Origin: Solidesulfovibrio aerotolerans
GTDB taxonomy: Bacteria > Desulfobacterota > Desulfovibrionia > Desulfovibrionales > Desulfovibrionaceae
Reading direction: 5' to 3'
Assembly (NCBI RefSeq): GCF_009856865.1
Contig: NZ_WVUD01000001.1
Location: 1-64,000, forward strand
DNA: 64,000 bases
Below the pieces are notes generated by a model. That model worked only from the letters and a program-made list of their open reading frames with translations. It was not told the DNA's origin and ran no database searches. Positions within the stretch are counted from its first letter, which is position 1. Every line of letters starts with the position of its first letter. This document shows positions 45,905-61,882 of the stretch, piece after piece. The translations under genes were made by a program, and so were the position numbers.

Positions 45905-45991
45905 GCCCGAGTGGCGGAACTGGTAGACGCCAGGGACTTAAAATCCCTTGTTCTTCGGGACGTGCCGGTTCGATTCCGGCCTCGGGCACCA
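45905..45991 (+). tRNA. tRNA-Leu (anticodon UAA), with encoded CCA
   Basis: Acceptor arms GCCCGAG (45905-45911) and CTCGGGC (45981-45987) pair perfectly; the discriminator A and CCA follow. The anticodon stem-loop AGGGACTTAAAATCCCT gives UAA, and a long variable arm (TTGTTCTTCGGGACG) marks a class II leucine tRNA. GGTTCGATTCC is the T-arm. Its 3' end is duplicated at 61826-61882, so it is the insertion site of the island to the right. Confidence 0.96.
45935..45991 (+). repeat. attL: left attachment repeat of the island
   Basis: The last 57 bases of the tRNA (from the anticodon loop to the CCA) are identical to 61826-61882. The integrase gene starts about 800 bases to the right and reads into the island. 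The left copy keeps the tRNA intact. Confidence 0.9.
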
Positions 45992-46791: not shown

Positions 46792-47787
46792 ATGGCGACC
46801 ATACGCAAACGCGGTGCAGCGCAGTGGGAAGCCCGGATTCGCAAGCGGGGCTATCCCACGACATGCAAGACCTTTGACACCAAGGTGGAAGCCGAAGCCT
46901 GGGCCAAGGACATCGAAACGACCATGAACAAGAGCCTCTTCGTGTCCGCCAAGGAGGCCGAGCAATATACGCTGAGCGAGTGCCTTGAGCGCTACATTGA
47001 GGAGTATATCCCGCGCCTGAAGCACGCTAAGCGGGAAACCGACCGGGCTAGGTTCCTCCAGAAGCGGACCATCGCCCATCGGATCATGGCCACGATCCGC
47101 GCCCGGGACATTGCCGACTTCCGGCGGGAACGCGAGGCCGAAGGGGTGAGCGGTAACACCATCCGTCTGGATTTCGCCCTGCTCTCCAAGCTCTTCAACT
47201 ACGCCCGCTCGGATTGGGGCATGGAAAGCCTGCAGAACCCCGTGGAGCTGGCCGCCAAGCCCAGGCCTGCCAAAGGCCGCGACCGACGCCTGGAAGATGG
47301 CGAGGAAGAGCGCCTCTTGGCTGCGGCTGCGCCCAGGTTTAGGCCGGTCATCCTCTTTGCTCTGGAAACCGCTATGCGCCGGGAGGAAATCGCCAGCCTA
47401 CACTGGAAGAACGTCAATATTCGAGGGCGATACGTCCTCTTACCCGAAACCAAGAACAGCGAGGCCCGGACAGTCCCCCTTGCAGAAGGGGCCTTGGCTG
47501 TCCTACGCGAGCTGCCACGAAGCTTGGATCAGGGGCCTGTGTTTGGCCTTTTAGCGGAGCAGATTACGGCGTCAATGAGATATGCGTGCAAGAGGGCAAA
47601 GCTTGAGAATCTCCGTTTTCATGACCTGCGGCACGAAGCCACCAGCCGTTTCTTTGAACTTACGGATTTGGACGTTATGGAAATCAAGGCCATCACCGGA
47701 CACAAAACGCTGCAAATGTTGGCACGGTACACGCATTTGAGAACGGCACGGCTGGCGGATAGGTTGGCTGGGATGAAGCGAGGATGA
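46792..47787 (+). CDS. int: Tyrosine recombinase (integrase) of the island
   Basis: 331 residues, AAGGAGG before the ATG. The N-terminal arm/SAM-like part (ATIRKRGAAQWEARIRKRGYP) is followed by the catalytic domain: RREEIASLHW (first Arg), HDLRHEATSRF (HxxR) and GHKTLQMLARYTHL with the catalytic Tyr. It is expected to recombine the attachment sites in the tRNA-Leu gene. It lies 800 bases from attL, reads toward the island and converges on hsdR. Confidence 0.95.
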   Translation: MATIRKRGAAQWEARIRKRGYPTTCKTFDTKVEAEAWAKDIETTMNKSLFVSAKEAEQYTLSECLERYIEEYIPRLKHAKRETDRARFLQKRTIAHRIMATIRARDIADFRREREAEGVSGNTIRLDFALLSKLFNYARSDWGMESLQNPVELAAKPRPAKGRDRRLEDGEEERLLAAAAPRFRPVILFALETAMRREEIASLHWKNVNIRGRYVLLPETKNSEARTVPLAEGALAVLRELPRSLDQGPVFGLLAEQITASMRYACKRAKLENLRFHDLRHEATSRFFELTDLDVMEIKAITGHKTLQMLARYTHLRTARLADRLAGMKRG

Positions 47788-47883: not shown

Positions 47884-50800
47884 TTATTGAGATTGGCCCC
47901 CAATAGTGCTTATTGCGTTTACAGGTATTGATGTTTGGTAGGTGACCCCAAAAATCGTATCACCCAGCCATTTCTTGAACGAAGGATTATCGCTAAATTG
48001 TTTAAAAAGCTCTGTATGGTCTGCCAGTAGATCGATGACGACACGTTGCAAGGCCTTGTCATGTTCTATCCTGGCATTTTGCTTGTCGGAATTCTTCATC
48101 GCGTTCTGGTAGGCAATGTCAGCGCTCACCTTGACGGGAATTTCCTCGGCGATGACCTTGCGGATTTTGTCGGCGTCTTTCCATTCAACGCTTCCGAACT
48201 GATCGTTGAACGCTTTTATGATGTTGCTGAGTTGGTCTAGCTCCGGTTCCGGCATCCTGCCTCCGCCACTGGTGGGAACGGGATCAACCTCCGCGTCCGC
48301 GTCGGGGAGTGCGATTTGCAGTGCGGATTGCACCTCGACTCGGTAGCTATCCATATCGACGGCATCCAGAATGCCTCGGGACAGGTCATCTTCCTTGGGG
48401 GCGGGGAGCTTCGGGATGAGAAAGTTCAGAAAAATCGAAAGTTTTTCCCAATCTGAATTATTGTAGGGAAGAATCGAAGCCAAAAAACCGTATGTCCGCA
48501 CAAAGGCCTTGGCTTTCCCTTTAAAGTCCACTTGGCCATCTTCATCCAGGTCGGCGTTGTAACCGGCGACACAGGCATCCAGGATCGGGTCAAGAGCGTC
48601 GCGATCCGCACCGGCAAGATAGCGACTCACGAAGTTACCAACCTGCTCCTGGGAATAGACTTGATGGCCTTCCAGGTCAGCTCGGATGTCGTGCAGCTTG
48701 TTCGGGTCAGTCTCTTCCGAGAGGATGGTTGTCCGGTAATAATCGGAGAACGATTTTTGTATCGTGTCGGCGTCGTTATAAAAGTCCAGTACAAAAGTGT
48801 CGTGCTTTAATGGATGGGCTCGGTTGAGGCGCGAGAGCGTTTGCACAGCTTTGATGCCGGATAGCGCCTTGTCTACATACATTGTATGTAATAGGGGCTC
48901 ATCGTAGCCAGTCTGAAACTTATCAGCGACGATTAGAAAGCGGTATGGGTCTTGGCGCACCATGTCCGGAATTTGGCTGCTCGGAAACCCATTCAGTGTC
49001 GCTTCGGTCACCTTTTTCCCGCCGTACTCTTGTTCGCCGGAAAATGCCACGATGGCTTGGTACGGGCTCTTCCGCACCTTGAGATATTCTTGAAAGGCAT
49101 GGAAATACTGGATGGCCCGCTCAATGCCGTTGGTGATGACCATGGCTCGGGCCTGGCCGCCGATTTTACGATGGCCGACCACCTGCTCATGGAAATGGTC
49201 CACCATGATTTCGGCCTTTTCCCGGATGGCGTGCCGGTGCGACTCCACGTAGCGACGCAACTTTTTCTGCGCTCGTTTTGCATCGAAAAGCGGGTCGTCC
49301 TCTACCTTTTTGGCCAAACGATAGTAGCTCTCCACCGGGGTGTAATGCTGCAACACATCCAGGATGAAGCCTTCTTGGATTGCCTGCTTCATTGTGTAGG
49401 CGTGAAACGGCAGGTGTCTGACCTTGTCGCCTTCCGGCCTCGGCTCACCAAAAATTTCCAGGGTCTTGTTCTTCGGCGTGGCGGTGAAGGCGAAGTAGCT
49501 GGCATTGGGCAGCATCTTGCGACCTTCCATGATCTTGTTGATCTTGTCCTCGGTCGTCTCCTCCTCATCCGTGCCGGCAGTCTCCTGGCCCTCCGCCAGG
49601 GCCATGTTCATCATGGCAGCCGTCCGGCCTCCCTGGCTGGAGTGCGCTTCGTCGATGATGATGGCGAAATGGCTCCGCCGATGCTCGTCTCCGATCTCGT
49701 CGAGGATGAAGGGGAACTTCTGGACCGTGGTGATAATGATCTTTTTTCCGGACTTGAGGAATTTTCGCAGGTCGCCGGAGTGTTCAGCGTGCCCGACTGT
49801 GGCCGAGACCTGGGCAAACTGCTTGATGGTGTCCCGAATCTGCTTGTCGAGCACGCGCCGATCCGTAACGACAATGACGGAATCGAAGAGCGTGTTGCCC
49901 GCCTTCTCCAGGCCAACGAGTTGATGCGCCAACCAGGCAATGGAGTTGCTCTTGCCGCTGCCGGCCGAATGCTGAATCAGGTAGCGTTTCCCGAGGCCTG
50001 ACGTCTCGGCGTCCGCCAAGAGCATACGGACCACTTTTAACTGGTGGTAGCGGGGGAAGATTTGCTTATGCTTCTTTCGGCCGGTTTTCTGGTCCTTTTC
50101 CACCACCACCTGGGCATAGTTCTCAAGAATGTCGGTCAACCCTTCCTTGGTAAGGATTTCCTTCCAAAGATAATCGGTGGCAATGCCGTCTGGATTTGGG
50201 GGATTGCCCGCGCCATCGTTGTAGCCCTTGTTGAAGGGGAGAAACCATGACTGTTTGCCCTTGAGATAGGTGCACATCCGCACTTCGTGATCGTCCACAG
50301 CGAAATGCACAAGGCAGCGTCCGAACTGAAACAAGACCTCTCTTGCGTCGCGATCGAGCTTATATTGTTGCACCGCATCGTCTACGGTCTGCTTGGTGAG
50401 CTTGTTTTTCAGTTCAAAGGTGATGACGGGCAGGCCGTTGATGAAGGCGGCCATGTCGAGGGCGAGTTGGGTTTCGTCCCGGCTGTAGCGGAGTTGACGG
50501 GTGACGCTGAAGATGTTCGCTGCGAACCGCTCGACGGCTTTGGCGTTTCCCGGGCTTGGCGTACCGTAGAAAAGCTCGATGCTGGCTGATTGGTGCTTGA
50601 TGCCGCTACGCAGCACGTCCACCACGCCACGCTTGGCGATTTCGCCCTGTAATCGGTGCAGGAATTGGACGCGCTTGGGGCCTTCAACGCCAATTCCCAG
50701 GCTCTCGACCACATCCTGCTGGGTGGCATTAAGAAACGCGAGCAGCTTGGCCAGGTCAACGGCATGTTCCCGGTCGAAATCACCCGGATCGCCGGCAACC

Positions 50801-50931
50801 CATCCGGTGTTTTCCGAGGGCGCGGCAAGCTCGGCGGGCTCTTCGGAGGCTTTCCGGCAAAGGCCTGACCGGCCGGTCATAGCTCGAAAAATCAACGTCT
50901 CCAGGCCCTTTTCGCTGGTATCCGTGGGCAT
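47884..50931 (-). CDS. hsdR: Type I restriction enzyme, R subunit
   Basis: An ATG at 50931 with AGGAGA upstream gives 1015 residues; a longer frame begins 30 bases upstream. VITFELKN near residues 170-176 is the endonuclease PD-(D/E)xK core. HSAGSGKSNS (about 322-330) is Walker A, IIIDEAHSSQGG is motif II, and helicase motifs such as FQTGYDEP and SRLNRAHP follow. It cleaves unmethylated DNA after translocation in complex with HsdM and HsdS. It is set apart from the rest of the operon by the AlbA_2-type gene and by about 130 bases. Confidence 0.95.
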   Translation of the reverse strand: MPTDTSEKGLETLIFRAMTGRSGLCRKASEEPAELAAPSENTGWVAGDPGDFDREHAVDLAKLLAFLNATQQDVVESLGIGVEGPKRVQFLHRLQGEIAKRGVVDVLRSGIKHQSASIELFYGTPSPGNAKAVERFAANIFSVTRQLRYSRDETQLALDMAAFINGLPVITFELKNKLTKQTVDDAVQQYKLDRDAREVLFQFGRCLVHFAVDDHEVRMCTYLKGKQSWFLPFNKGYNDGAGNPPNPDGIATDYLWKEILTKEGLTDILENYAQVVVEKDQKTGRKKHKQIFPRYHQLKVVRMLLADAETSGLGKRYLIQHSAGSGKSNSIAWLAHQLVGLEKAGNTLFDSVIVVTDRRVLDKQIRDTIKQFAQVSATVGHAEHSGDLRKFLKSGKKIIITTVQKFPFILDEIGDEHRRSHFAIIIDEAHSSQGGRTAAMMNMALAEGQETAGTDEEETTEDKINKIMEGRKMLPNASYFAFTATPKNKTLEIFGEPRPEGDKVRHLPFHAYTMKQAIQEGFILDVLQHYTPVESYYRLAKKVEDDPLFDAKRAQKKLRRYVESHRHAIREKAEIMVDHFHEQVVGHRKIGGQARAMVITNGIERAIQYFHAFQEYLKVRKSPYQAIVAFSGEQEYGGKKVTEATLNGFPSSQIPDMVRQDPYRFLIVADKFQTGYDEPLLHTMYVDKALSGIKAVQTLSRLNRAHPLKHDTFVLDFYNDADTIQKSFSDYYRTTILSEETDPNKLHDIRADLEGHQVYSQEQVGNFVSRYLAGADRDALDPILDACVAGYNADLDEDGQVDFKGKAKAFVRTYGFLASILPYNNSDWEKLSIFLNFLIPKLPAPKEDDLSRGILDAVDMDSYRVEVQSALQIALPDADAEVDPVPTSGGGRMPEPELDQLSNIIKAFNDQFGSVEWKDADKIRKVIAEEIPVKVSADIAYQNAMKNSDKQNARIEHDKALQRVVIDLLADHTELFKQFSDNPSFKKWLGDTIFGVTYQTSIPVNAISTIGGQSQ

Positions 50932-50947
50932 GCCGTTCTCCTGCGAG

Positions 50948-51055
50948 CAAGCAACCGTCAAACAAATTTTGCGAAGCTAACCGCTAGAATTAAAAGCATT
51001 GCACCCATTGGGTGGCTTCTGGCGGCCTCGCCAGTCAAGCAACGGTCAAACAAAT
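50948..51055 (+). repeat. Direct repeat flanking the hsdR start
   Basis: CAAGCAACCGTCAAACAAAT (50948-50967) recurs as CAAGCAACGGTCAAACAAAT (51036-51055), 19 of 20 identical, 88 bases apart. It lies between hsdR and the next gene. It could be a recombination scar or a pair of operator-like sites. Confidence 0.5.
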
Positions 51056-51067
51056 CCGGAAGCCGCA

Positions 51068-52534
51068 TCAAGCCCACCAGGGAAGGTACTTTTTCGCTTT
51101 GCTCCCCACCGTGTCGTCATGGCAGCGGATGCGCCCGGCCTCCAGGGTGTCGCGGATGATCCGCGAGGCCATGGCGCTGTTCTTGGCGTCGATGCCGAAC
51201 CGTTCCCGCAGGGTGCTGTTGGTCATGAAGTCGCGCTGCACGTAGCGCAAACAGGCGTGCAGATAGCAGGCCCATATCCGGTCGCCCTTATCCATCTCCC
51301 GAAGGTCGCGGTGGGCAAAGAGCACAATCCGTGTGTGCTCCTCCACGGTTTCGAAGAGTGGGGCCGGCAGTTGGAAAAGTTCGGTCTGGGATACGACCTT
51401 GTCGATGCCACTTCCTCGTTCTTCGCAGATTCGGAAGCGGCGCATGAGCGACGCCAGCGTCTCGTTGCGGGATTTGGGCGGTGTATCGATGAAACGGTCG
51501 GTAGAAACCAGCGGCACGCCGGGGTTGGTGATTTCCATCCGATCGTCGAAAAGCTCCACCATCGGTCCCGCGCCGGTAATGAAAAAATCCTGGTGGATGA
51601 GTGCGTTTGCCACCAGCTCACGGACGGCAAGTTCAGGGTACATGGGCACGGTCTTGCGCAAGGCCTGACCGATGACCTCGTTGCTTGGCACCAGCGCCAT
51701 AATGAAGCTGATGAGTCCCTCGAACCCGCTGGCGTAGCCCTTGCCGCCAACCTGCTCGCGGAGGGTTTCTACACGCCCCTTGCCCTTGTAATGGATGACG
51801 CGCATGGCCTTTCGCTTGAGGCTCGGAAAGTCGTCCAGCTTCTTGGCGAAAAGGATCGCCCCCATGTTGGTGATGTTCCAATCGCCGGCCTGACAGGATT
51901 GGATAATGCCGTCGTGCTCCAAAGCCTCAAGAATCGCCGCCCGGCCATCGGGGAGGGGCAATTCCAGCAAATCAAAAAAGGCGGGGTAGTCGAGCAAGCG
52001 CAGCACCTCTTCCGCGCCCACGTGCTCGGAGGCAATGCCGCGCTCGAACGGAACCTGGTCGAAAACGCGCCACAACGCCCGTTCCTTTTCAGGATGCTCT
52101 TTCAGCTTTGTTTTATGGGAGCCGACCCGGATATATTCCTGATCCTTGAACCGCACGGGGTGCCGGAACGCCGCGCCGATTTCCAGCAGCACGACGGGCT
52201 TGTCCTCGACTGATATCTCGAAAAAACGGAAGTTGATTTTGGGAGCCAGCAGCCGCAGCAGCCAGTTTTCCAGCTCTTCATTGCCGATTTTGGCAGCGCC
52301 GGGCTTGAATGTGGTTCCAATGATGTCGTGGGTCGTGTCATCCACTCCCCACACCAGATAGGCATTGACCTTGCCCAGCAGCGCCGCCGAGTTGGCCAGG
52401 GCGGAGAGGTATTCCCCGATCATATCCGGGGTGTCGTTGTTGTGCTTGAACTCCACCCACTCGGTTTCAGCCGGGAGTTTGCGCAGCTCATGCACCAGAC
52501 CGACGTAATACTCGGCCTGCCGGTCGAGGTTCAT
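51068..52534 (-). CDS. AlbA_2/ATP-binding (Schlafen-type) protein of the restriction locus
   Basis: 488 residues. The N-terminal domain (TEWVEFKHNNDTPDMIGEYLSALANSAALLGKVNAYLVWGVDD) matches AlbA_2/Schlafen-type DNA-binding modules. Near residue 310, YPELAVRELVANALIHQDFF and RMEITNPGVP fit a GHKL-type HATPase_c_4. The C-terminus looks like a winged helix. Its ATG overlaps the hsdS stop (ATGA), so it belongs to the operon. Such proteins are often placed in type I restriction loci; the role (regulation or additional defence) is not established. Confidence 0.82.
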   Translation of the reverse strand: MNLDRQAEYYVGLVHELRKLPAETEWVEFKHNNDTPDMIGEYLSALANSAALLGKVNAYLVWGVDDTTHDIIGTTFKPGAAKIGNEELENWLLRLLAPKINFRFFEISVEDKPVVLLEIGAAFRHPVRFKDQEYIRVGSHKTKLKEHPEKERALWRVFDQVPFERGIASEHVGAEEVLRLLDYPAFFDLLELPLPDGRAAILEALEHDGIIQSCQAGDWNITNMGAILFAKKLDDFPSLKRKAMRVIHYKGKGRVETLREQVGGKGYASGFEGLISFIMALVPSNEVIGQALRKTVPMYPELAVRELVANALIHQDFFITGAGPMVELFDDRMEITNPGVPLVSTDRFIDTPPKSRNETLASLMRRFRICEERGSGIDKVVSQTELFQLPAPLFETVEEHTRIVLFAHRDLREMDKGDRIWACYLHACLRYVQRDFMTNSTLRERFGIDAKNSAMASRIIRDTLEAGRIRCHDDTVGSKAKKYLPWWA

Positions 52535-53862
52535 TCTTCCGTCTCCGGTATGTCATCCTGTTCAGCATCGTCTATGGATTCGACGTCATCTTCGATAGCG
52601 AGTAATTCTTCTTCGGGTACCGGCGCAAGCTCGATGTTTCGTACATCCACCTTGCCGGTGACGACGTCGGATATAAGGCGGGCACGGTATTCGCGCATAA
52701 GTTCTACTTCACGCATTGTTTTCGAGATAGCAATGTCAATATTCTTAGACTCATTGCAAAAATAGGAAGCAATATCAGACTGTTCATTAAGTGGAGGTGC
52801 AGGAATCTGTAGGTTCATTATTTTCTCAACGGATATCCCTGGTTGCGCTGCGGATTCAGAGTATTGGTTTAGATTCATCACGCGGAGAAGCTCTGAAAGC
52901 CAACGTATATCATCGTTCCCATTTAATGTTGTTACTATAGCATGCTCAGACGCCCAAAATCGGCCATTGACTAAATGCACATTTCCGCACAAGGCCCCTT
53001 GCCGCCCAACAAGGATAAAATCACCATCATGAGTGTATGAGGAGCTGAAACCACGGTGGCCATTCCCGCCATAAACAGGATAAGCGCCGCGCTCAGAGAT
53101 TGACAACGAGGTAATGCCATCACCACTTTTCATTGAAACCAATCTCTTGAGTTTCATGACTGGCCAATGTTCCGGGATATCCCCAAGCCACGGCACACCG
53201 CTAGGTTTGAGTGTGACATCAGGATTTATTCCTCGGGTGATGGCCTTATTGATGATGTTTTGTCTTTGCTCTTTGAGGAGGGCGATAAGTCGACGTTTTC
53301 TTCGAATAAAACAATTAATTTTCTTCTTCCAGCTATTGACATACTGAACAATATCGTCTTGTTCTTCTTTGCTCGGAAGAGGAAAAAACATGCGAGCCAA
53401 ATTCGGATATCTAAGCCTTGGGGCTCGCTCTCGTACAGCTGGGCATATTATTCTGATAAAATCCAGTCTAGCCATTTCCCTGATGAGGAGAGCATAATAC
53501 TGAAGGTTAATGGTTGGATGTTTTGCATTAAGAATAACATATTCTGGAGTGCATTTCCCGTTACTGTCAGATACGCCGACAGCTCCTGCAAAGGCATCCA
53601 TCGCATGGACAACAAGTTGATTAACCCGAACGCCTTGATATCCTCCTTCGAGTAAAGCATTCATGAAACCCCGTTCACGACGATTCTTTCTCAAAGTAAC
53701 TTGTCCATCACGAAAACACGTAACAATTTCATCTTCTTCGCGGACTGGAAGGTTTGATTCAGAAAATAAATTCTTGGCTCTTTCACTCTGCCATTCCGAA
53801 GGGATCGTTGGAAGCCATGTGATGCCAGAGTCCTTGTGCTGTCGGTAAAGCTTGGAATTCAT
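52531..53862 (-). CDS. hsdS: Type I restriction-modification, specificity subunit
   Basis: 443 residues. Two half-repeats begin with SGITWLPTIPSEW (near 12) and SGVPWLGDIPEHW (near 209), each followed by a target-recognition domain and a coiled-coil spacer. This is the classical two-TRD layout. The DNA is clearly AT-richer than the flanking genes, as expected for exchanged recognition domains. It overlaps hsdM upstream and the AlbA_2-type gene downstream by four bases each. Confidence 0.93.
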   Translation of the reverse strand: MNSKLYRQHKDSGITWLPTIPSEWQSERAKNLFSESNLPVREEDEIVTCFRDGQVTLRKNRRERGFMNALLEGGYQGVRVNQLVVHAMDAFAGAVGVSDSNGKCTPEYVILNAKHPTINLQYYALLIREMARLDFIRIICPAVRERAPRLRYPNLARMFFPLPSKEEQDDIVQYVNSWKKKINCFIRRKRRLIALLKEQRQNIINKAITRGINPDVTLKPSGVPWLGDIPEHWPVMKLKRLVSMKSGDGITSLSISERGAYPVYGGNGHRGFSSSYTHDGDFILVGRQGALCGNVHLVNGRFWASEHAIVTTLNGNDDIRWLSELLRVMNLNQYSESAAQPGISVEKIMNLQIPAPPLNEQSDIASYFCNESKNIDIAISKTMREVELMREYRARLISDVVTGKVDVRNIELAPVPEEELLAIEDDVESIDDAEQDDIPETEE

Positions 53863-55994
53863 CTTTCCACCTTTCCGACAATCTGTTCAAGCAATCCATC
53901 AGTCTCCTGCTCCAACGCGTAGATATCTGCCTTGATCTCCTCCAGTGTGCGCATGGGGATAGGCTTGTAAAAATGTCGCGTAAAGGAAACTTCATAACCA
54001 ATCAGAATCTTGTCAGGATCAATCCAGGCGTCCGGTGTGTAGGGCAGAACCTCGCGTTTGAAAAAGGCCTCGATGCCGCCTTCTTCGAGCAACGGTATCT
54101 GCTCGGTGTCGCGGAGGCTGGTGTCCGACTCGTATTCCACCACCCGGGTCTTGCCGTCCATCTCGACCGGATACAAACCGTGCAGCGGGTCTGGTTGGGT
54201 TTTCCCCGGCTTATGCACCTTCTTGACGACGGGTGAGGCCGATGCGTCGGTGACCGTAAGCTCGACCTGGAGGAGCTTCTTGCGCTTGGCCGTGAGCTTG
54301 ACGCCATGCTTGTCGGCGTCCGTTTCAACCGCGTCCATGACGACGTTGAAATCAAGATGCGGCCCAGCGCCAAGGAGCTTCGCAACCCGCCGCGCCAGCT
54401 TGGGCAGGGGCTCTTCCTTGGCCGCTTTGCAGACTTTTTCAAAAAGATCGAGCCTTGCGGGGCTCAAGTCGGTGGCGAGACGCAAAGGGCGGTCCACCGT
54501 GATCTTCCAGAACCCAAAAGCTTCGTTCGCAAAAATCTTGGACTGTTCGGTTTGAACGGGATTGACGATCAGCTCGCAAATTTGCCGGATATGTTCCTCG
54601 GAAAACTCGCAGTTCTTTTTGCCAAGATTCTTGCGGAGCGGCACGGACCAGCCCGTGGCGTCGATGAGCTGCACCTTGCCTTTGCGCGCCTCGGACTTGC
54701 GGTTGGTCAGTATCCAGACGTACGTGGCAATACCGGTGTTGTAGAACATGTTTTCCGGCAAGGCGATGATCGCCTCCAGCCAGTCGTTCTCGATGATCCA
54801 GCGACGGATGTTGCTTTCACCCTGGCCTGCGTCGCCAGTGAACAGAGAAGACCCGTTGTGGACTTCGGCGATGCGGCTGCCGAGCTTGGTGGCATGCTTC
54901 ATCTTGGACAGCTTGTTGACCAGGAACATGAGCTGCCCGTCGCTTGAGCGGGTGATCATCTTGAATTCCGGATCACCGCCGTGCTGCACGACAAAACGGG
55001 GGTCCGTAATGTCGCCCTTGCCGCCCAGGCGCTCAAGATCGGTCTTCCAGCTCTTGCCATAGGGCGGATTGGAAAGCATGAAATCGAACTCGTGGGAGGG
55101 GAAGGCGTCGCTGGACAGGGTGGAGCCGTATTTCAGGTTTTCGGCCTCCTCGCCTTCTCCCTTGAGCAGCAAATCCGCCTTGGAAATGGCGTAGGTTTCC
55201 GGCTGCACCTCCTGACCGAAAAGGTGCGTTTCAACCGCCTTGCCATGGCTTTGCGACAGCTCTTTCAAGCGTTCTTCGGCCACGGTCAACATGCCGCCAG
55301 TGCCGCAGGCTCCGTCGTAGACAAGAAACGACCCTGACTCGATCCGATCCACCACGGGAAGGAAGATCAGGTCGGCCATGAGCTTGACCACATCGCGAGG
55401 CGTGAAATGCTCCCCGGCCTCCTCGTTGTTTTCTTCGTTGAACCGGCGGATCAGCTCCTCGAAAATGGTGCCCATGGCATGGTTGTCGAGGGCGGGCAGT
55501 TTTTCATTGCCCTTGTCGTCAAGCACAGGCTTGGGACTCAGATTGATCTTGGTGTCCAGGAACTTTTCGATAAGGCTGCCAAGAATGTCCGCGTCGACAA
55601 GCGTTTGTATTTGATTGCGAAATTTGAACTTGTCGAGAATCTCCTGCACGTTTTGGGAAAACCCGTCCAGGTAGGCTTCGAAATCGGCCCGAAGCTGTTG
55701 TTGCTTGGCCCGGGATTTCAGGTCGCGCAGGGTAAAGGGGGAGGCGTTGTAAAAGGCCTCCCGGGAAACTTGAGCAAGAGCGGCGTGCTGATTGGCGATG
55801 CCAGCCGCGTCGAGCTGCTTTTTCATCGCGAGCACGGCTTCCTTGGTCGGCTCAAGCACGGCGTCAAGACGTCGAATGACCATCATGGGCAGGATGACGT
55901 CGCGATATTTCCCTCGCACATAGACATCCCGCAGAACATCGTCAGCGATGCCCCAAATGAAGCTGACAATGGTGTTATGCATCGCATGATCCAT
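53859..55994 (-). CDS. hsdM: Type I restriction-modification, methyltransferase subunit
   Basis: 711 residues. The HsdM N-terminal helical domain is at 5-140, and GEHFTPRDVVKLM starts the MTase domain. Motif I DGACGTGG (227-234) and motif IV NPPYG (309-313) define an N6-adenine methylase. The C-terminal 200 residues are a larger-than-usual extension of the ~500-residue core. ATG 55994 has AAGGAG 12 bases upstream inside the end of the preceding AlpA-like gene. Confidence 0.95.
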   Translation of the reverse strand: MDHAMHNTIVSFIWGIADDVLRDVYVRGKYRDVILPMMVIRRLDAVLEPTKEAVLAMKKQLDAAGIANQHAALAQVSREAFYNASPFTLRDLKSRAKQQQLRADFEAYLDGFSQNVQEILDKFKFRNQIQTLVDADILGSLIEKFLDTKINLSPKPVLDDKGNEKLPALDNHAMGTIFEELIRRFNEENNEEAGEHFTPRDVVKLMADLIFLPVVDRIESGSFLVYDGACGTGGMLTVAEERLKELSQSHGKAVETHLFGQEVQPETYAISKADLLLKGEGEEAENLKYGSTLSSDAFPSHEFDFMLSNPPYGKSWKTDLERLGGKGDITDPRFVVQHGGDPEFKMITRSSDGQLMFLVNKLSKMKHATKLGSRIAEVHNGSSLFTGDAGQGESNIRRWIIENDWLEAIIALPENMFYNTGIATYVWILTNRKSEARKGKVQLIDATGWSVPLRKNLGKKNCEFSEEHIRQICELIVNPVQTEQSKIFANEAFGFWKITVDRPLRLATDLSPARLDLFEKVCKAAKEEPLPKLARRVAKLLGAGPHLDFNVVMDAVETDADKHGVKLTAKRKKLLQVELTVTDASASPVVKKVHKPGKTQPDPLHGLYPVEMDGKTRVVEYESDTSLRDTEQIPLLEEGGIEAFFKREVLPYTPDAWIDPDKILIGYEVSFTRHFYKPIPMRTLEEIKADIYALEQETDGLLEQIVGKVER

Positions 55995-56003
55995 GATCCG
56001 GTA

Positions 56004-56219
56004 CTACTCCTTACGCTTGTTGTCCGACTCAACAGGTTCGGCCGCGCCGCCGGCCTTTACCCACCCGTCCACTTCGTCTTTTTTGAACTTCCAAAGACGC
56101 CCCATACGGTGGGCCGGCATCCCATGCTTGTCGATCCACTTGTATACCGTGTCGTTGCTGACGCCGAGATGCTGGCATATCTCGGTCATCGACAACCAGC
56201 GGTCTTCGATTTCGACCAT
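56004..56219 (-). CDS. AlpA/excisionase-family helix-turn-helix protein
   Basis: 71 residues from ATG 56219 with GGAG upstream. SMTEICQHLGVSNDTVYKWI is a MerR/AlpA-type winged-helix DNA-binding start; RMGRLWKFKKDEVDGWVKAG is the wing. It is the first gene of the hsd operon, nine bases before hsdM, so it may control expression of the restriction genes, as suggested by position. Confidence 0.82.
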   Translation of the reverse strand: MVEIEDRWLSMTEICQHLGVSNDTVYKWIDKHGMPAHRMGRLWKFKKDEVDGWVKAGGAAEPVESDNKRKE

Positions 56220-56515
56220 TTCAATCTCCGAAAGGTGTTTGGGTGAAGAGCCCACGCTCGCCGACGACAGGCGCGAGGTCAGGCCGCGACCTCCCCAAGC
56301 AGGTGGCGTAGAATAGGGAACCGAATTGTGTGATGTCAATCGATCTTTGCCGATTTGAGCCGATGAGAGGGGTTTGATGGTGGCTCCGGTAGATGAGCAA
56401 TCAGTCCAAGGACGCCATCGAAAGCAGTATCGCGTTTCAACGGCAATCTGATTTCCTCAAGCCGGAATTATGGGAAATTGCATGCAGATGCAAATTAGCC
56501 CTTTGCCGTTGAATT
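56220..56515. other. Intergenic spacer between hsd and mob modules
   Basis: About 300 bases without a convincing gene. It holds the presumed promoter of the hsd operon, in the minus direction. AT content rises toward 56510. No structured RNA was recognised. Confidence 0.5.
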
Positions 56516-58105
56516 TTAACGACCAAAATTTTTTTCTCGACTGAGCCATCTGCTAATTTCCTCTACTTTTGGCTCAGCATAACGTTTAAGCGAGTCAATA
56601 ACGGCTCCAGTCTCGTTGACAGCTCGTTCAAGCACTGCAATTGCTGCATTGATTCTCGCTGCTGTGCTTTTAAATTCGAAACCTGCTGCTGGATTTGGCG
56701 CAAGGCATCCGCATGGGAGGTCAGAGCCCGCGCTTGTTCTGTAAGTTTTTGAGCCTGTTCTTCCTGTATCTGGCGAAGTTCCTGCTCCAATGCGGTCAAA
56801 GTGGAGGTGATGAGGCGTTCTATTTCCGTCATTATCTACTCCAATTTCACGGCTTGCTGTTTGCCCACCGTCCAGCCAGTGTGGGCCGAAGTCTTCGGCG
56901 GCAGGATGATGAACCGGCCCTCCTGGTTCTCCAGGAGCTTCAATCCCCAGGTCCGCTTTTCCAATTGGCCGGCGGTGTTCTCCAGCTCGGTTTTGCTGAC
57001 ATTTAGGCTCTGAATCTCCCCTTGTAATGCCTTGACCCTGTGTGTGAGCAGGGTCACCACGCCCCAACCGCCCAAGGCCGTCCCCGCCAGAAGGGCCATG
57101 CTCAGGAGCAGGGCTTGCAGCCATTTGCGGCCGAAGGTCCAGCTCAGGGTTTGGCAGCGTGAGGCGATGTGCTCTTCCAATTTCCCAAGCTTTTCCTGGA
57201 TAGCGGCTTCGGTTGTACGCAGCGCGGCGGTCGACGACTGCTGCAAGCTCTTGCTCAAGGCGTCGAATTGCTGCCGGGTCAGGGCTTCGAGCTCCTGTCG
57301 GTCCTGTTCGGTCTTGGCCCGCATGCGCTCGGCCAGGGAGGTCAGCGAGTTGCCAGTGTTCGGCATAGATTCCCCCTTTGAGGCGAAGCTTTTCGCCGCT
57401 GGCTGGGTCTTTGACGGTGACGTAGTGCTTGCCTGCCCTGTTGATCTCCAGGTCGGCCTCCCGAAGCGCCGCAAGAAGCTCGGGGCGGTTTGTAACCTGT
57501 CCCTCTTCGATCTTCATGAGCAGGAAGGCGTGGACGGCGTCCTTGGCCTCCGCGCGTTCGTCCTTGCCGGGCGCTGTCCCCCATCGGATCAGACGGGCTT
57601 TGTGCAGGTCCGCGTGTTCCGGCGTGCGCAGTCGGGCTCGGGTTGGATCATCCGGCCTGGCCCAACCTTCGCGGTGATTGTGCAGGTCCCGGAACACGTC
57701 GAAGTGCTTTTGCCAGCCGGGCGGGCAGGGATTGAAGGCCTTGCCGCCTGAGAGTTCCACGCGAGGGATGACGAAATGGAGCTCATGATGCCCGGCATGG
57801 TGATGCCTCACCCAAAGGATATTGCGCTGATCCGGCTCCAGGCTGGCAAAGGCCACGGCCTCGAAGTCCTCCATGACGCGCGTTTCCTGCTTGGGCGTCA
57901 CGACTTCGTCCGGATGCCAGGAAAGGACCCCTGCCGTGAACTTCCATTTGGTGTCCAGGGAGTCGATCAGCTCTCGCGTCAGCTCAGGATCGCCGCGCAG
58001 CACCTCGGGCGGATATTTGTCCCGGTCCGGGTAGTCCGGCCGCACCAGATAGCGCGTCGGCCCATCCCCGGCCCCCTGACCGTGCTGGAAGACCTTCATG
58101 TACAT
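56516..58105 (-). CDS. mobA: MobA-type relaxase (ColE1/MOB_HEN-like) with long C-terminal tail
   Basis: 529 residues from ATG 58105. The N-terminal relaxase domain has RYLVRPDYPDRDKYPPEVLRGDP (candidate catalytic Tyr19) and HHHAGHHELHFVIPRVEL (near 101-118), the metal-binding motif. GWARPDDPTRARL follows. Residues from about 250 run through a region that also encodes two other proteins in another frame, and end in an amphipathic coiled coil (INAAIAVLERAVNETGAVIDSLKRY). The protein nicks and leads the island DNA during mobilization. Its start overlaps the mobC stop by 10 bases. Confidence 0.88.
   Translation of the reverse strand: MYMKVFQHGQGAGDGPTRYLVRPDYPDRDKYPPEVLRGDPELTRELIDSLDTKWKFTAGVLSWHPDEVVTPKQETRVMEDFEAVAFASLEPDQRNILWVRHHHAGHHELHFVIPRVELSGGKAFNPCPPGWQKHFDVFRDLHNHREGWARPDDPTRARLRTPEHADLHKARLIRWGTAPGKDERAEAKDAVHAFLLMKIEEGQVTNRPELLAALREADLEINRAGKHYVTVKDPASGEKLRLKGGIYAEHWQLADLPGRAHAGQDRTGPTGARSPDPAAIRRLEQELAAVVDRRAAYNRSRYPGKAWEIGRAHRLTLPNPELDLRPQMAASPAPEHGPSGGDGLGRLGRGDPAHTQGQGITRGDSEPKCQQNRAGEHRRPIGKADLGIEAPGEPGGPVHHPAAEDFGPHWLDGGQTASREIGVDNDGNRTPHHLHFDRIGAGTSPDTGRTGSKTYRTSAGSDLPCGCLAPNPAAGFEFKSTAARINAAIAVLERAVNETGAVIDSLKRYAEPKVEEISRWLSREKNFGR
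56563..56832 (-). CDS. mobD: MobD/MbeD-like protein, nested within mobA
   Basis: 89 residues, MTEIERLITSTLTALEQELRQ..., almost entirely coiled coil, similar in length and shape to ColE1 MbeD. The SD GGAG lies in the last codons of mobB and the ATG comes three bases after the mobB stop. It is completely inside mobA in another frame. Confidence 0.72.
   Translation of the reverse strand: MTEIERLITSTLTALEQELRQIQEEQAQKLTEQARALTSHADALRQIQQQVSNLKAQQRESMQQLQCLNELSTRLEPLLTRLNVMLSQK
56836..57366 (-). CDS. mobB: MobB/MbeB-like protein, nested within mobA
   Basis: 176 residues, AAGGGGG before ATG 57366. Helical N-terminal part (SLTSLAERMRAKTEQDRQELEALTRQ), matching the MbeB N-terminal region. Then one transmembrane helix (WLQALLLSMALLAGTALGGWG, near 82-102) and a C-terminal part with coiled coil. 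In ColE1-type systems MbeB stabilises the relaxase at the membrane. It lies entirely within the mobA frame in a different reading frame. Confidence 0.75.
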   Translation of the reverse strand: MPNTGNSLTSLAERMRAKTEQDRQELEALTRQQFDALSKSLQQSSTAALRTTEAAIQEKLGKLEEHIASRCQTLSWTFGRKWLQALLLSMALLAGTALGGWGVVTLLTHRVKALQGEIQSLNVSKTELENTAGQLEKRTWGLKLLENQEGRFIILPPKTSAHTGWTVGKQQAVKLE

Positions 58106-58479
58106 GGCGTCTCCCTGAAGGCGTTTGACTCCATGGAGGAAGAGGGCTCTTGCCGCTCGCCTTCTCCAGCGCCTGCGCCTCGCTTGAGGGACCTCTCGAT
58201 ACTCAAGAGGGCAACCAAGACCTGAATGGTCTCTGCCCGGCTTTTGTACGTATTGGCCCACCTAGCCAGTTGGTTCAGGTTCGCGCCCACTCGGGCAAGC
58301 TGGCGAACGTGCTCCTTCTCTAAAGGTGTTTGGCGAAGGCGGTAGTCCAGGGCGCGTTGGCGGATGAAATCCGTCACAGTCTGGCCCTGGGCTTGCGCCT
58401 TGGCCGTGATCGCTTCCTTCTCAGCCGGGGTGACGCGAAGTTTGATCCAGGCTGTCCGGCTCGGAGCCTTTTCTTTCAT
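58096..58479 (-). CDS. mobC: MobC-family mobilization accessory protein
   Basis: 127 residues from ATG 58479 (AGGTGA upstream). WIKLRVTPAEKEAITAKAQAQGQTVTDFIRQRAL is a ribbon-helix-helix start, and VRQLARVGANLNQLARWANTYK is the MobC signature. It probably binds the adjacent oriT and helps the relaxase open the strand. It overlaps the mobA start by 10 bases. Confidence 0.87.
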   Translation of the reverse strand: MKEKAPSRTAWIKLRVTPAEKEAITAKAQAQGQTVTDFIRQRALDYRLRQTPLEKEHVRQLARVGANLNQLARWANTYKSRAETIQVLVALLSIERSLKRGAGAGEGERQEPSSSMESNAFRETPCT

Positions 58480-58507: not shown

Positions 58508-58592
58508 GGGGTCGAGGGGGGCGCAGCCCACCCGCCAGCCCCGGCAGGGGGCACCGCGTCAGCGCGTGCCCACAACGGGTAGGCTGGCTCTG
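58508..58592. other. Candidate oriT (ColE1 bom-like)
   Basis: Directly upstream of mobC. GGGGGGCGCAGCCC (58516-58529) resembles the GGGGCGCAGCC of the ColE1/pBR322 bom region as I recall it. A hairpin follows: GGGCAC (58549-58554) pairs with GTGCCC (58566-58571), extended inside by GCG/CGC with one bulged C, loop TCAG. CTGGCT (58584-58589) is like the ColE1 nick context CTGG/CTTA. The match is by memory, not alignment, and the nick site is inferred. Confidence 0.5.
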
Positions 58593-58639: not shown

Positions 58640-58713
58640 GCGAAAAAAGCGAAATAAGCGAAATAAGGTTCACGCGAGATTCCTCCTTTCTTCGCTTATT
58701 TCGCTTTTTTCGC
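58640..58713. repeat. 23-bp perfect inverted repeat at the end of the DUF3987 gene
   Basis: 58640-58662 is the exact reverse complement of 58691-58713, with 28 bases between. Each arm is built from TTCGCTTATT/TTCGCTTTTT units. The right arm encodes the last SEKSEISE residues of the DUF3987 protein. It may be a terminator/stabiliser or a replication or transfer site. Confidence 0.65.
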
Positions 58714-60061
58714 TTAATTCGCGCAGAGCCAGGATGATCCGGGGACGGCCCGCATTTTTCAGCTTGGTGATGGTGATGCGCTGTTGTGCCTCGAGTTGTT
58801 GCAGCAGGGGTTTGAGGCGGTCGCGGGGGACATGCCTGCTCAGGACGGTGCTTAGTTCGGTGGCCGTGAGCGGGCCGGCCCTGAGCGCTTCCAGGATTTT
58901 ATCTTCCAGCGGGTCCGTCGCCCGGTCTCCGAAGATGTAGCGCGCCGAATCCTGGGCATAGCGCCACATGACAAGGGCCGCTTGCAGGTGGGGCTCCTCG
59001 ATTTTCCCCTGAGCGTCCAAGAGCGCATAGAGGAGAGCCAGACGGAGGGTTTGGGCTTCGGCCCGGTTGATAATGCTCCCGGCCAGTCCCGTGTGCTCCT
59101 GGGAGAGCTCTGGGTAGACGTGTCGCCAGAGCTCCAGGGCATTCGACGTCATGGTCATGACGCCGCGTTGCTGGGCTTGTCCCACGCACCGCCAAAGCTC
59201 ACGTTGCAAGGGCGCAAGCTCTGCGTCCGGCATCCGTGAAGGCAGGGCGACCAGTTTCGAGCGCCGGGCGCATATCCAGAGGAAACGGTTGCCGAAGCCA
59301 TTCACGGCCTGCACCTCGCCCAAACACACGGCTAGTTCCTGCATGGTGATGTGGGTGATGATGCTGATGTGCGCGCCGCGCACCAGAACGGGGTTGTTCT
59401 TGGTCAGGGGGGCATAGTCGCCGGAGTCCCAGAAACAGCGGATGCCCATGGAGAGCGTGTTGCCTTCCCGTTTGGTGCAGGCAAGGGCGCTGGCAAACTC
59501 CTCGTCCATGATGACGAGCCTTTTGTCTCCCTTTTCGCGGACCGGTTCAGCAGGGTTCTGACGCTGTCTCCGTTCCCGCTCCTCATCGCTTTCGTCGCGT
59601 ACATGATGGGCCAGCCCTTCTCCCGTGGAGAGCGGGCCGCCACTCTCTCTGGCGGGCAAAGGGACGCCCCAGACCTTCAGATCAGCGGGCAGGCAGTGTT
59701 CCCGCCCAAAGAGCTTCGCCACGGGATGTCGAGAGGTTCCTTTGCGGGCCTTGCTGGTGCTGCCGCAGATGACGGCAAAGAGGCGCGGCGAGTGGACGGT
59801 CTCGCCCACATAGAGGTGCGGGCCTTTATCGGGCGCATAGCCGTAGACCTCCGCTCCGAAACGCACCAACGCCGTGATGCAGACCGCCGCCGGATCAGCT
59901 TCGCTGTCACGCGTCGCCAGCCGCACGAACTCGCCCAGGATGCCCGGGCAGGCGTCAAACGAGAATCGAGGCCACTCCTTGAGGTTGAGGCCAATGGGAT
60001 CATCCGGCTGGGCCTCTTGACGTGCGCAGGGCAGCGAAGCGACCAAGGGTCTGCCGCTCAT
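58670..60061 (-). CDS. DUF3987 protein, replication-type ATPase of mobile elements
   Basis: 463 residues. LKEWPRFSFDACPGILGEFVRLATRDSEADPA is the DUF3987 start; GSTSKARKGTS is the Walker-A-like site; LVIMDEEFASAL and FGNRFLWICARRSKLVALP follow. The C-terminal part is a winged-helix-like tail (LKPLLQQLEAQQRITITKLKNAG). Such proteins accompany primases or act in replication on phage and plasmid-like elements. It overlaps the AlpA-like gene by four bases (ATGA). Confidence 0.8.
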   Translation of the reverse strand: MSGRPLVASLPCARQEAQPDDPIGLNLKEWPRFSFDACPGILGEFVRLATRDSEADPAAVCITALVRFGAEVYGYAPDKGPHLYVGETVHSPRLFAVICGSTSKARKGTSRHPVAKLFGREHCLPADLKVWGVPLPARESGGPLSTGEGLAHHVRDESDEERERRQRQNPAEPVREKGDKRLVIMDEEFASALACTKREGNTLSMGIRCFWDSGDYAPLTKNNPVLVRGAHISIITHITMQELAVCLGEVQAVNGFGNRFLWICARRSKLVALPSRMPDAELAPLQRELWRCVGQAQQRGVMTMTSNALELWRHVYPELSQEHTGLAGSIINRAEAQTLRLALLYALLDAQGKIEEPHLQAALVMWRYAQDSARYIFGDRATDPLEDKILEALRAGPLTATELSTVLSRHVPRDRLKPLLQQLEAQQRITITKLKNAGRPRIILALRELSEKSEISEERRNLA

Positions 60062-61825: not shown

Positions 61826-61882
61826 GACTTAAAATCCCTTGTTCTTCGGGACGTGCCGGTTCGATTCCGGCCTCGGGCACCA
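61826..61882 (+). repeat. attR: right attachment repeat
   Basis: 57 bases identical to the 3' end of tRNA-Leu at 45935-45991 (anticodon loop through CCA). There is no tRNA 5' half here, so this is the duplicated core left by site-specific integration. Confidence 0.9.

Follow-up and report, generated by a model that had tools for sequence, protein, structure and literature searches.

We consider it likely that mobB and mobD of Solidesulfovibrio aerotolerans are real genes nested out of frame within the relaxase gene mobA, that all three belong to the mobilization module of an integrative mobilizable element, and that the MobA protein combines selected helices with an open tether. We observed the gene layout, the homology of its parts, the selection specific to each frame, and the borders of the island computationally, in a stretch of 64,000 nucleotides (contig NZ_WVUD01000001.1, positions 1 to 64,000; hereafter, the window) and in related loci.

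Layout of the mobilization module

Direct inspection of the open reading frames (ORFs) confirmed the proposal, made in the initial annotation of this DNA, that two complete genes lie out of frame inside the relaxase gene. The features of the module are as follows:

58524-58590, minus strand: candidate oriT carrying GCCAGCCTACCC, in a conserved stretch ~45-110 bp upstream of mobC
58096-58479, minus strand: mobC, ribbon-helix-helix type accessory protein (PF21983 NikA-like, 1.7e-21; PF05713 MobC, 5.2e-10)
56516-58105, minus strand: mobA, MOBP relaxase of 529 aa (PF03432, E 1.7e-8)
57371-57376, minus strand: Shine-Dalgarno-like site of mobB, GGGGGA
56836-57366, minus strand: mobB, 176 aa, wholly inside mobA in the +1 frame (ORF check, MbeB homology)
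56839-56842, minus strand: Shine-Dalgarno-like site of mobD, GGAG, within the last mobB codons
56563-56832, minus strand: mobD, 89 aa, wholly inside mobA in the +1 frame (ORF check, MbeD homology)
57203-57277, minus strand: MobA helix 277-301, whose DNA also encodes the MobB N-terminus (AlphaFold, w_A, composition)
56669-57193, minus strand: MobA linker 305-479, modeled as disordered, near-neutral, and stop-avoiding (AlphaFold, w_A, shuffles)
56522-56665, minus strand: MobA C-terminal helix 481-528, overlapping the mobD end (AlphaFold, composition test)

On the minus strand, mobC precedes mobA and overlaps its start by 10 nt. That start is probably the ATG at 58105, with the ATG at 58099 as an alternative; of the 10 loci read, 7 begin mobA with the residues MYMKVF, and contig ends cut the remaining 3. 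Depending on the start chosen, mobB begins at mobA codon 245 or 247. Together, mobD and mobB span exactly 56563-57366, and the mobB stop is separated from the mobD start by 3 nt, a gap shared by 42 of 52 loci. By eye, MobB has one membrane-like segment. Each nested gene had also been credited with a ribosome site of its own; indeed, Shine-Dalgarno-like sites stand before both starts (AAAGGGGGAATCT-ATG for mobB and TTGGAGTAGATA-ATG for mobD), and a loose pattern, applied without a chance control, found such sites at 50 of 50 MobB and 52 of 52 MobD starts.

The 12-mer GCCAGCCTACCC is identical in all 14 aligned loci (the window's included), and the conserved stretch upstream of mobC that carries it is a likely oriT. 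Three plasmids have resembling sites upstream of mobC (GCCAGCATAC, GCCAGTATAC, and GCCAGCCTAC), and the motif may be related to the ColE1 nic site. A 463-aa ORF (58670-60061) adjoins mobC; its 3' end is conserved in relatives, and it has no Pfam match above the cut-off.

The island that carries the module

The module had been assigned to a chromosomal island, for which we found an integrase, a tRNA-Leu gene, and a perfect repeat. The features are listed below:

45905-45991: tRNA-Leu(TAA)
45935-45991, plus strand: att repeat, formed by the 3' end of tRNA-Leu(TAA)
46792-47787, plus strand: tyrosine integrase (PF00589, 8e-23)
47884-55994, minus strand: cargo, comprising type I restriction-modification hsdR, a Schlafen/AlbA gene, hsdS, and hsdM
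56004-56339, minus strand: excisionase-type HTH protein (TIGR01764, 5.5e-19)
61826-61882, plus strand: att repeat, perfect 57-bp copy

The tRNA-Leu gene and the 57-bp repeat bound an island of 15.9 kb, in which a HAD-family ORF lies between the integrase and the tRNA gene and an mqsRA pair is also present. The Schlafen/AlbA_2 gene (51068-52534) is situated between hsdR and hsdS. Type IV secretion system (T4SS) genes had no match among the island ORFs scanned. Judged by these sequence features (i.e., an integrase, tRNA att repeats, a relaxase, and no T4SS among the scanned ORFs), the island is an integrative mobilizable element. The module is likewise flanked by a tRNA gene on one side and by a distant direct repeat of 32-60 bp on the other in all four relatives examined, which were picked because their contigs are long. 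Elsewhere in the genome of S. aerotolerans, we noted a second relaxase match and, on another contig, a VirD4-type coupling-protein match (G000:C73:339236-339535 and G000:C135:174-1382); a search of this genome for a VirB4/CagE-type protein (PF03135) gave no match.

Homology and relaxase class

Profile comparison by hhalign matched MobB to MbeB (probability 99.3, E 4e-20) and MobD to MbeD (probability 96.1, E 3.4e-9). With tblastn, MobB found MbeB-annotated plasmid genes at E 2e-6 over 97% of its length and at 1e-7 over its last 44 residues. MobD as a single sequence had no plasmid match at E 0.1, and the Pfam models MbeB_N and MbeD_MobD match the ColA proteins but not MobB and MobD of the window. 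At the window locus alone, openness of the mobA frame is not rare, since shuffling of the synonymous MobB and MobD codons left it open in 8.8% and 6.7% of cases, respectively, as might suit a view of the nested ORFs as chance ORFs in GC-rich DNA. That view is nevertheless refuted by the MbeB/MbeD homology and is further contradicted by the conserved nesting and the purifying selection on MobB described below, leaving it with next to no probability.

The best NCBIfam model for MobA was relax_MbeA_E1 (E 2.7e-35; 122 bits, with a cut-off of 500), whose match covers residues 2-251 of the shorter MobA, that is, up to the overlap. The PF03432 domain and a motif I tyrosine in RYLV (the tyrosine identified by eye) place the protein in MOBP. 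Its motif III is HxHx4ELHF (HEH), whereas that of all 13 plasmids is HxDx4ELNF. A regular expression found the ELHF form in 56 of 70 loci, including the window's, and missed 14, one of which (L078) has EMHF. According to the portions available of two accounts, a HEN motif III defines MOBP5/MOBHEN (PMC12857230, PMC3297438), a feature that the window MobA, having HEH, does not share. The description of the module as ColE1-type therefore stands for its layout and MbeB/MbeD homology and fails for motif III. More specifically, the module resembles the mbeC-mbeA module of the ColE1 group in gene order, in the +1 frame of both nested genes, in MbeB/MbeD homology, and in an oriT-like GCCAG motif; it differs in residing in a chromosomal tRNA-targeted island, in having HEH rather than HEN, and in a MobA end that is not of the YDGPSL-like type seen in enterobacterial plasmids.

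The mob region of the Methylomarinovum tepidoasis plasmid IN45P (L029) likewise has a MobB match nested at +1 inside mobA and, by eye, a MobD-like ORF nested at +1 with the start MTELETELLKAL. Its motif III region, HREHGGGCHVH, is neither HEN nor the HEH of the window and, unlike the chromosomal window module, it lies on a plasmid, one classed as non-mobilizable by MOB-suite. Since this non-HEN relaxase shows the same nesting, the layout is not tied to HEN. The same mobA/mobB overlap is present in R1162/RSF1010. In the part available of an account of pAsal1, which cites the R1162 work, mobB is translated in another frame of mobA and has a membrane domain (PMC4655240). The mobB of pAsal1/pAsa3 is thus like that of the window in occupying another frame of mobA; no mobD appears in that part of the account (PMC4655240). 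Enterobacterial MbeB proteins (L100-L113) have similar N-terminal halves, joined to either of two C-terminal types that look unrelated, which suggests mosaicism.

Nesting in related loci and plasmids

Counting the genome of the window itself in both cases, 21 of 119 relatives have MobB, and 65 of 288 genomes in the family have MobA, as represented by its first 247 residues. Named genome contigs, when scanned, supplied 14 loci, all with Desulfovibrionaceae, Solidesulfovibrio, Humidesulfovibrio, or Desulfovibrio in their titles; the closest of these 14 belong to a Desulfovibrionaceae MAG and two Solidesulfovibrio. Of the 70 loci, 56 matched MobB and 65 matched MobD at E up to 1e-6; three of the 70 (L037, L059, and L062) run off the contig. 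Among Desulfovibrionaceae loci that lie clear of contig ends, 50 of 55 have the MobB-matching frame nested in mobA, and 61 of 64 the MobD-matching frame. Frameshifts or stops in most related islands, named in the initial annotation as the outcome that would speak against nested genes, were thus not what we found.

Counted among the 50 nested mobB rows are L060 (mobB interrupted close to its start, mobA and mobD open), L094 (shortened mobB), and L053 (mobB and mobD fused in one frame), and in L079, mobA is split near its start. The MobB frame is not nested in L038, L050, and L083, which have disturbed ends, nor in L052 and L054, where the mobA frame is broken and mobB/mobD are intact. A separate lineage (L058, L061, L063-L067, L069-L071, L073, and L075) has no MobB match at E up to 1e-6 and a mobD that is still nested; its MobA is shortened to ~393-402 aa.

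Both mobB and mobD are nested in mobA with an offset of +1 in 13 of 13 ColE1-type plasmids measured, and the same offset follows from ColE1-group coordinates in the part available of a published account (PMC9282650). From the 19 plasmid regions, L026, L028, L101, L102, L109, and L111 were excluded from this geometry, mobA being interrupted or cut or mobD unannotated. In L026 (ColA record NC_001373), the mobA frame seems interrupted, and mbeB and mbeD are annotated.

Selection on each frame

Rates were estimated for 43 of the 70 loci, in four clades of 14, 13, 9, and 7, and for 10 plasmids; L027, L114, and L115, which had been measured for geometry, were excluded from the rates as more divergent. 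We define w_A as the rate of A-nonsynonymous, B-synonymous changes divided by the synonymous rate of mobA alone, and dropped NN/SN as a measure of it, since the second codon positions of MobB are where SN changes fall. For non-overlapped mobA, omega was 0.14-0.15 (14 gapless loci, including the window's). Where the overlap begins, MobA residues are under constraint; across the remainder of mobB, they evolve near-neutrally. In the window clade, w_A was 0.56 (0.39-0.75) over mobB codons 1-60 and 1.22 (1.02-1.42) thereafter; the corresponding pairs in two other clades were 0.55 and 0.86, and 0.77 and 0.92. In the lineage without a MobB match, mobA codons 245-314 gave a dN/dS of 0.66 over a stretch that is similar, by eye, to helix 277-301.

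Purifying selection on MobB is clear in the Desulfovibrionaceae, with NN/NS values over the first 60 codons and the rest of 0.65 and 0.46, 0.47 and 0.50, and 0.79 and 0.74 in three clades. Over mobD, w_A was 0.81-0.95 in most segments of three clades, and 0.43 (0.24-0.60) for the lineage with a 402-residue MobA when only the second half of mobD is considered. In the window clade, w_A over mobD was an anomalous 2.4-2.6, all rates being raised 2.4-2.6 fold relative to mobA synonymous changes. There, NN/NS values of 0.88 and 1.01 indicate no constraint on MobD by that measure, and the case for MobD in this clade therefore rests on homology and conserved nesting. The ten plasmids gave a w_A of 0.16 and then 1.02-1.16 over mobB, and of 0.37-0.46 over mobD. 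Their NN/NS over mobB (1.30-1.36 in the first 60 codons, 0.88-1.00 in the rest) carried no signal of purifying selection on MobB in this ratio; over mobD, it was 0.48-0.58.

The expectation that both frames are coding is thus supported, with a refinement. In its favor are the MobB NN/NS of 0.46-0.79 in three clades, together with the stop avoidance of mobA and the composition at both ends of the overlap (see below). After mobB codon 60, however, the MobA residues are near-neutral (w_A 0.86-1.22), so that between the helices, "both coding" means that the frame is open rather than conserved. Our search of the open-licence PMC literature found no per-frame selection study of this nested module.

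Stop avoidance in the mobA frame

Without filtering, 52 of the 56 loci with a MobB match are free of mobA-frame stops over that match, as are all 65 loci with a MobD match over theirs. Shuffling the codons of the nested loci produced 183 stops over mobB (n = 50) and 88.5 over mobD (n = 61), where the real count is 0 by construction; the third frame of the same mobB and mobD holds 660 and 402 stops, respectively. Since these counts come from related loci, they are not independent. Two controls showed mild depletion: MobA codons 1-230 of the 70 loci had 731 real versus 840 shuffled stops, and nine other genes of the window had 147 versus 198. Eight plasmids, drawn from the 13 used for geometry and used for both the shuffle and the composition tests, had 0 mobA-frame stops versus about 28.5 (mobB) and 9.5 (mobD) after shuffling. 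By parsimony, 0 A-frame stop substitutions were inferred over mobB in the window clade versus 27.5 expected. Elsewhere, the parsimony counts, which concern ancestral states and not extant frames, are ambiguous (10 inferred versus 40.9 over mobD; in other clades, single segments had as many as 8), and it is therefore the codon shuffles that carry the argument.

Architecture of MobA and its C-terminal end

The AlphaFold model of MobA, built on a nine-sequence alignment, had a mean pLDDT of 55 and a pTM of 0.40, and given these low overall scores, we used only its local confidence. In this model, an N-terminal region of both helices and strands is followed by a helix at 277-301 (a block of pLDDT 66-89), an unstructured stretch at 305-479 (pLDDT below 50 throughout), and a helix at 481-528 (pLDDT 74-89 for residues 481-520 and 58 after). 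In a Foldseek search with this model, the best PDB match was the R1162 MobA relaxase domain 2ns6 (E 0.062), and none reached E 0.001 or better.

We then read the overlap in the MobA frame with MobD residues and codon usage held fixed. In 61 loci, the last 30 mobD codons encode fewer Pro+Gly (177 versus 279.5 expected) and more hydrophobic residues (705 versus 584.9) in this frame. The same holds for 27 hand-chosen representatives, with 64 versus 110.5 Pro+Gly (z -6.4) and 319 versus 267.7 hydrophobic residues (z 6.8), z-values that treat related loci as independent; the third frame gave z -2.0 and -0.5. Over the first 60 mobB codons, for which 23 representatives entered, the MobA frame has 174 versus 229.4 Pro+Gly and 337 versus 291.0 hydrophobic residues, and the third frame departs in the opposite direction (z 2.3 and -2.0). 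The representatives showed no such MobA-frame signal in the middle of mobB or at the start of mobD. In the eight plasmids, the Pro+Gly depletion over the first 60 mobB codons recurs (44 versus 80.4), but the C-terminal composition does not stand out from that of the third frame (z -1.7 and 2.2 versus -2.4 and 1.1). An apparent Pro+Gly excess and hydrophobic deficit in the linker over all loci (z 2.8 and -3.7; 3.8 and -5.0) was rejected, |z| being at most 1.7 in the 27 representatives. Collectively, MobA reads as a relaxase, a helix, a tether, and a helix. The impression that its end is protein-like agrees with the modeled C-terminal helix 481-528 and the selected composition.

These results bear on whether only mobB and mobD matter in the overlap, with the mobA frame after residue 305 a passive by-product that is open by chance. 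Such passivity fits the w_A beyond codon 60 in both the three clades and the ten plasmids, as well as the disordered model, and is opposed by the stop-free loci, the stops that arise on shuffling where controls are only mildly depleted, and the selected C-terminal composition. The MobA tail after mobD also argues against it: two clades give this tail a dN/dS of 0.45 and 0.55, and the plasmids 0.55-0.70, though a third clade gives 1.18. We regard this explanation as quite unlikely. A mobA frame passive across the overlap, as a w_A of about 1 had implied, was overturned by the stop and composition tests with respect to its openness and the two helices.

Alternatively, mobA might stay open only for translation coupling to mobB/mobD, the end of the MobA protein doing nothing. 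Coupling would account for stop avoidance combined with near-neutral linker residues and for the conserved mobB/mobD spacing. It would also sit well with the extension of mobA past the mobD stop, whose median of 13 codons equals the distance to the next stop in other frames and is therefore no evidence of function. A selected C-terminal helix is not predicted by coupling, however, and two loci keep mobB/mobD intact behind a broken mobA; we hold this account to be unlikely.

A basic tail (net charge +2 or more in the last 14 residues) occurs in 46 of 67 loci and in 8 of 14 plasmids; among 14-mers of the linker, 55 of 343 reach this charge. Clusters of positive charge at the C-terminus are known T4SS signals, according to the part available of PMC3297438. 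In the window's clade, the last 20 MobA residues are no more basic than those of other frames; a basic translocation signal as a general feature of MobA fails there and is retained only as a lead. Likewise only a lead is a putative C-terminal motif common to the plasmids (14 of 14) and Desulfovibrionaceae (11 of 67 loci), as its loose pattern was drawn after seeing the tails.

A hypervariable mobD end

Compared with eight relatives (L031-L036, L039, and L040), the window is 0.92-0.95 identical in 5' mobA and 0.88-0.93 in mobB, and 0.48-0.73 in mobD (0.48-0.55 in 6 of the 8). The hypervariable stretch, which we had not expected, comprises mobD and the end of MobA that it overlaps. Its mobD is 0.71-0.72 identical to those of L041 and L042, which belong to other genera (mobA 0.83-0.84), versus 0.73 to that of the best congener, L039. 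In the ten relatives compared, the mobB stop marks an abrupt fall in identity, with no recovery over the next 0.8 kb. The simplest reading of these alignments would be that one allele replaced another, with the breakpoint where mobB and mobD adjoin.

One speculation, to which we attach very little probability, is that mobD and the overlapping MobA C-terminal helix form a self-recognition pair encoded by one DNA stretch in two frames, such that MobD of a resident cell would recognise this helix on a relaxase of the same type as it arrives and would block its entry. If true, factor and target would switch together, which would explain the strong divergence between otherwise similar elements, and the pair would provide the donor target that is so far missing for ColE1 MbeD exclusion. 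The hypervariable mobD makes it testable what MbeD-type exclusion recognises.

Proposed mechanism and implications

Returning to the reading that we prefer, of real nested genes and a MobA with selected helices and an open tether, we propose that nicking of oriT would fall to MobC and the MobA relaxase, and movement of the strand to a type IV system of a helper. Expression of mobD would probably start by reinitiation, because its start lies 3 nt past the mobB stop and its Shine-Dalgarno site falls in the last mobB codons. The overlap would leave MobA as a relaxase, a helix, a loose tether whose residues are largely dictated by MobB and MobD, a C-terminal helix, and a short tail. Selection would keep mobA free of stops so that this last helix and tail, which may act as a docking or translocation element, are made.

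The nested mobB/mobD layout is thus not limited to small enterobacterial plasmids or to HEN relaxases, and it recurs in chromosomal mobilizable islands of the Desulfovibrionaceae, where the set of relatives allows selection on each frame to be separated. It also offers a reason why MobA C-termini seem unconserved and yet stay open.
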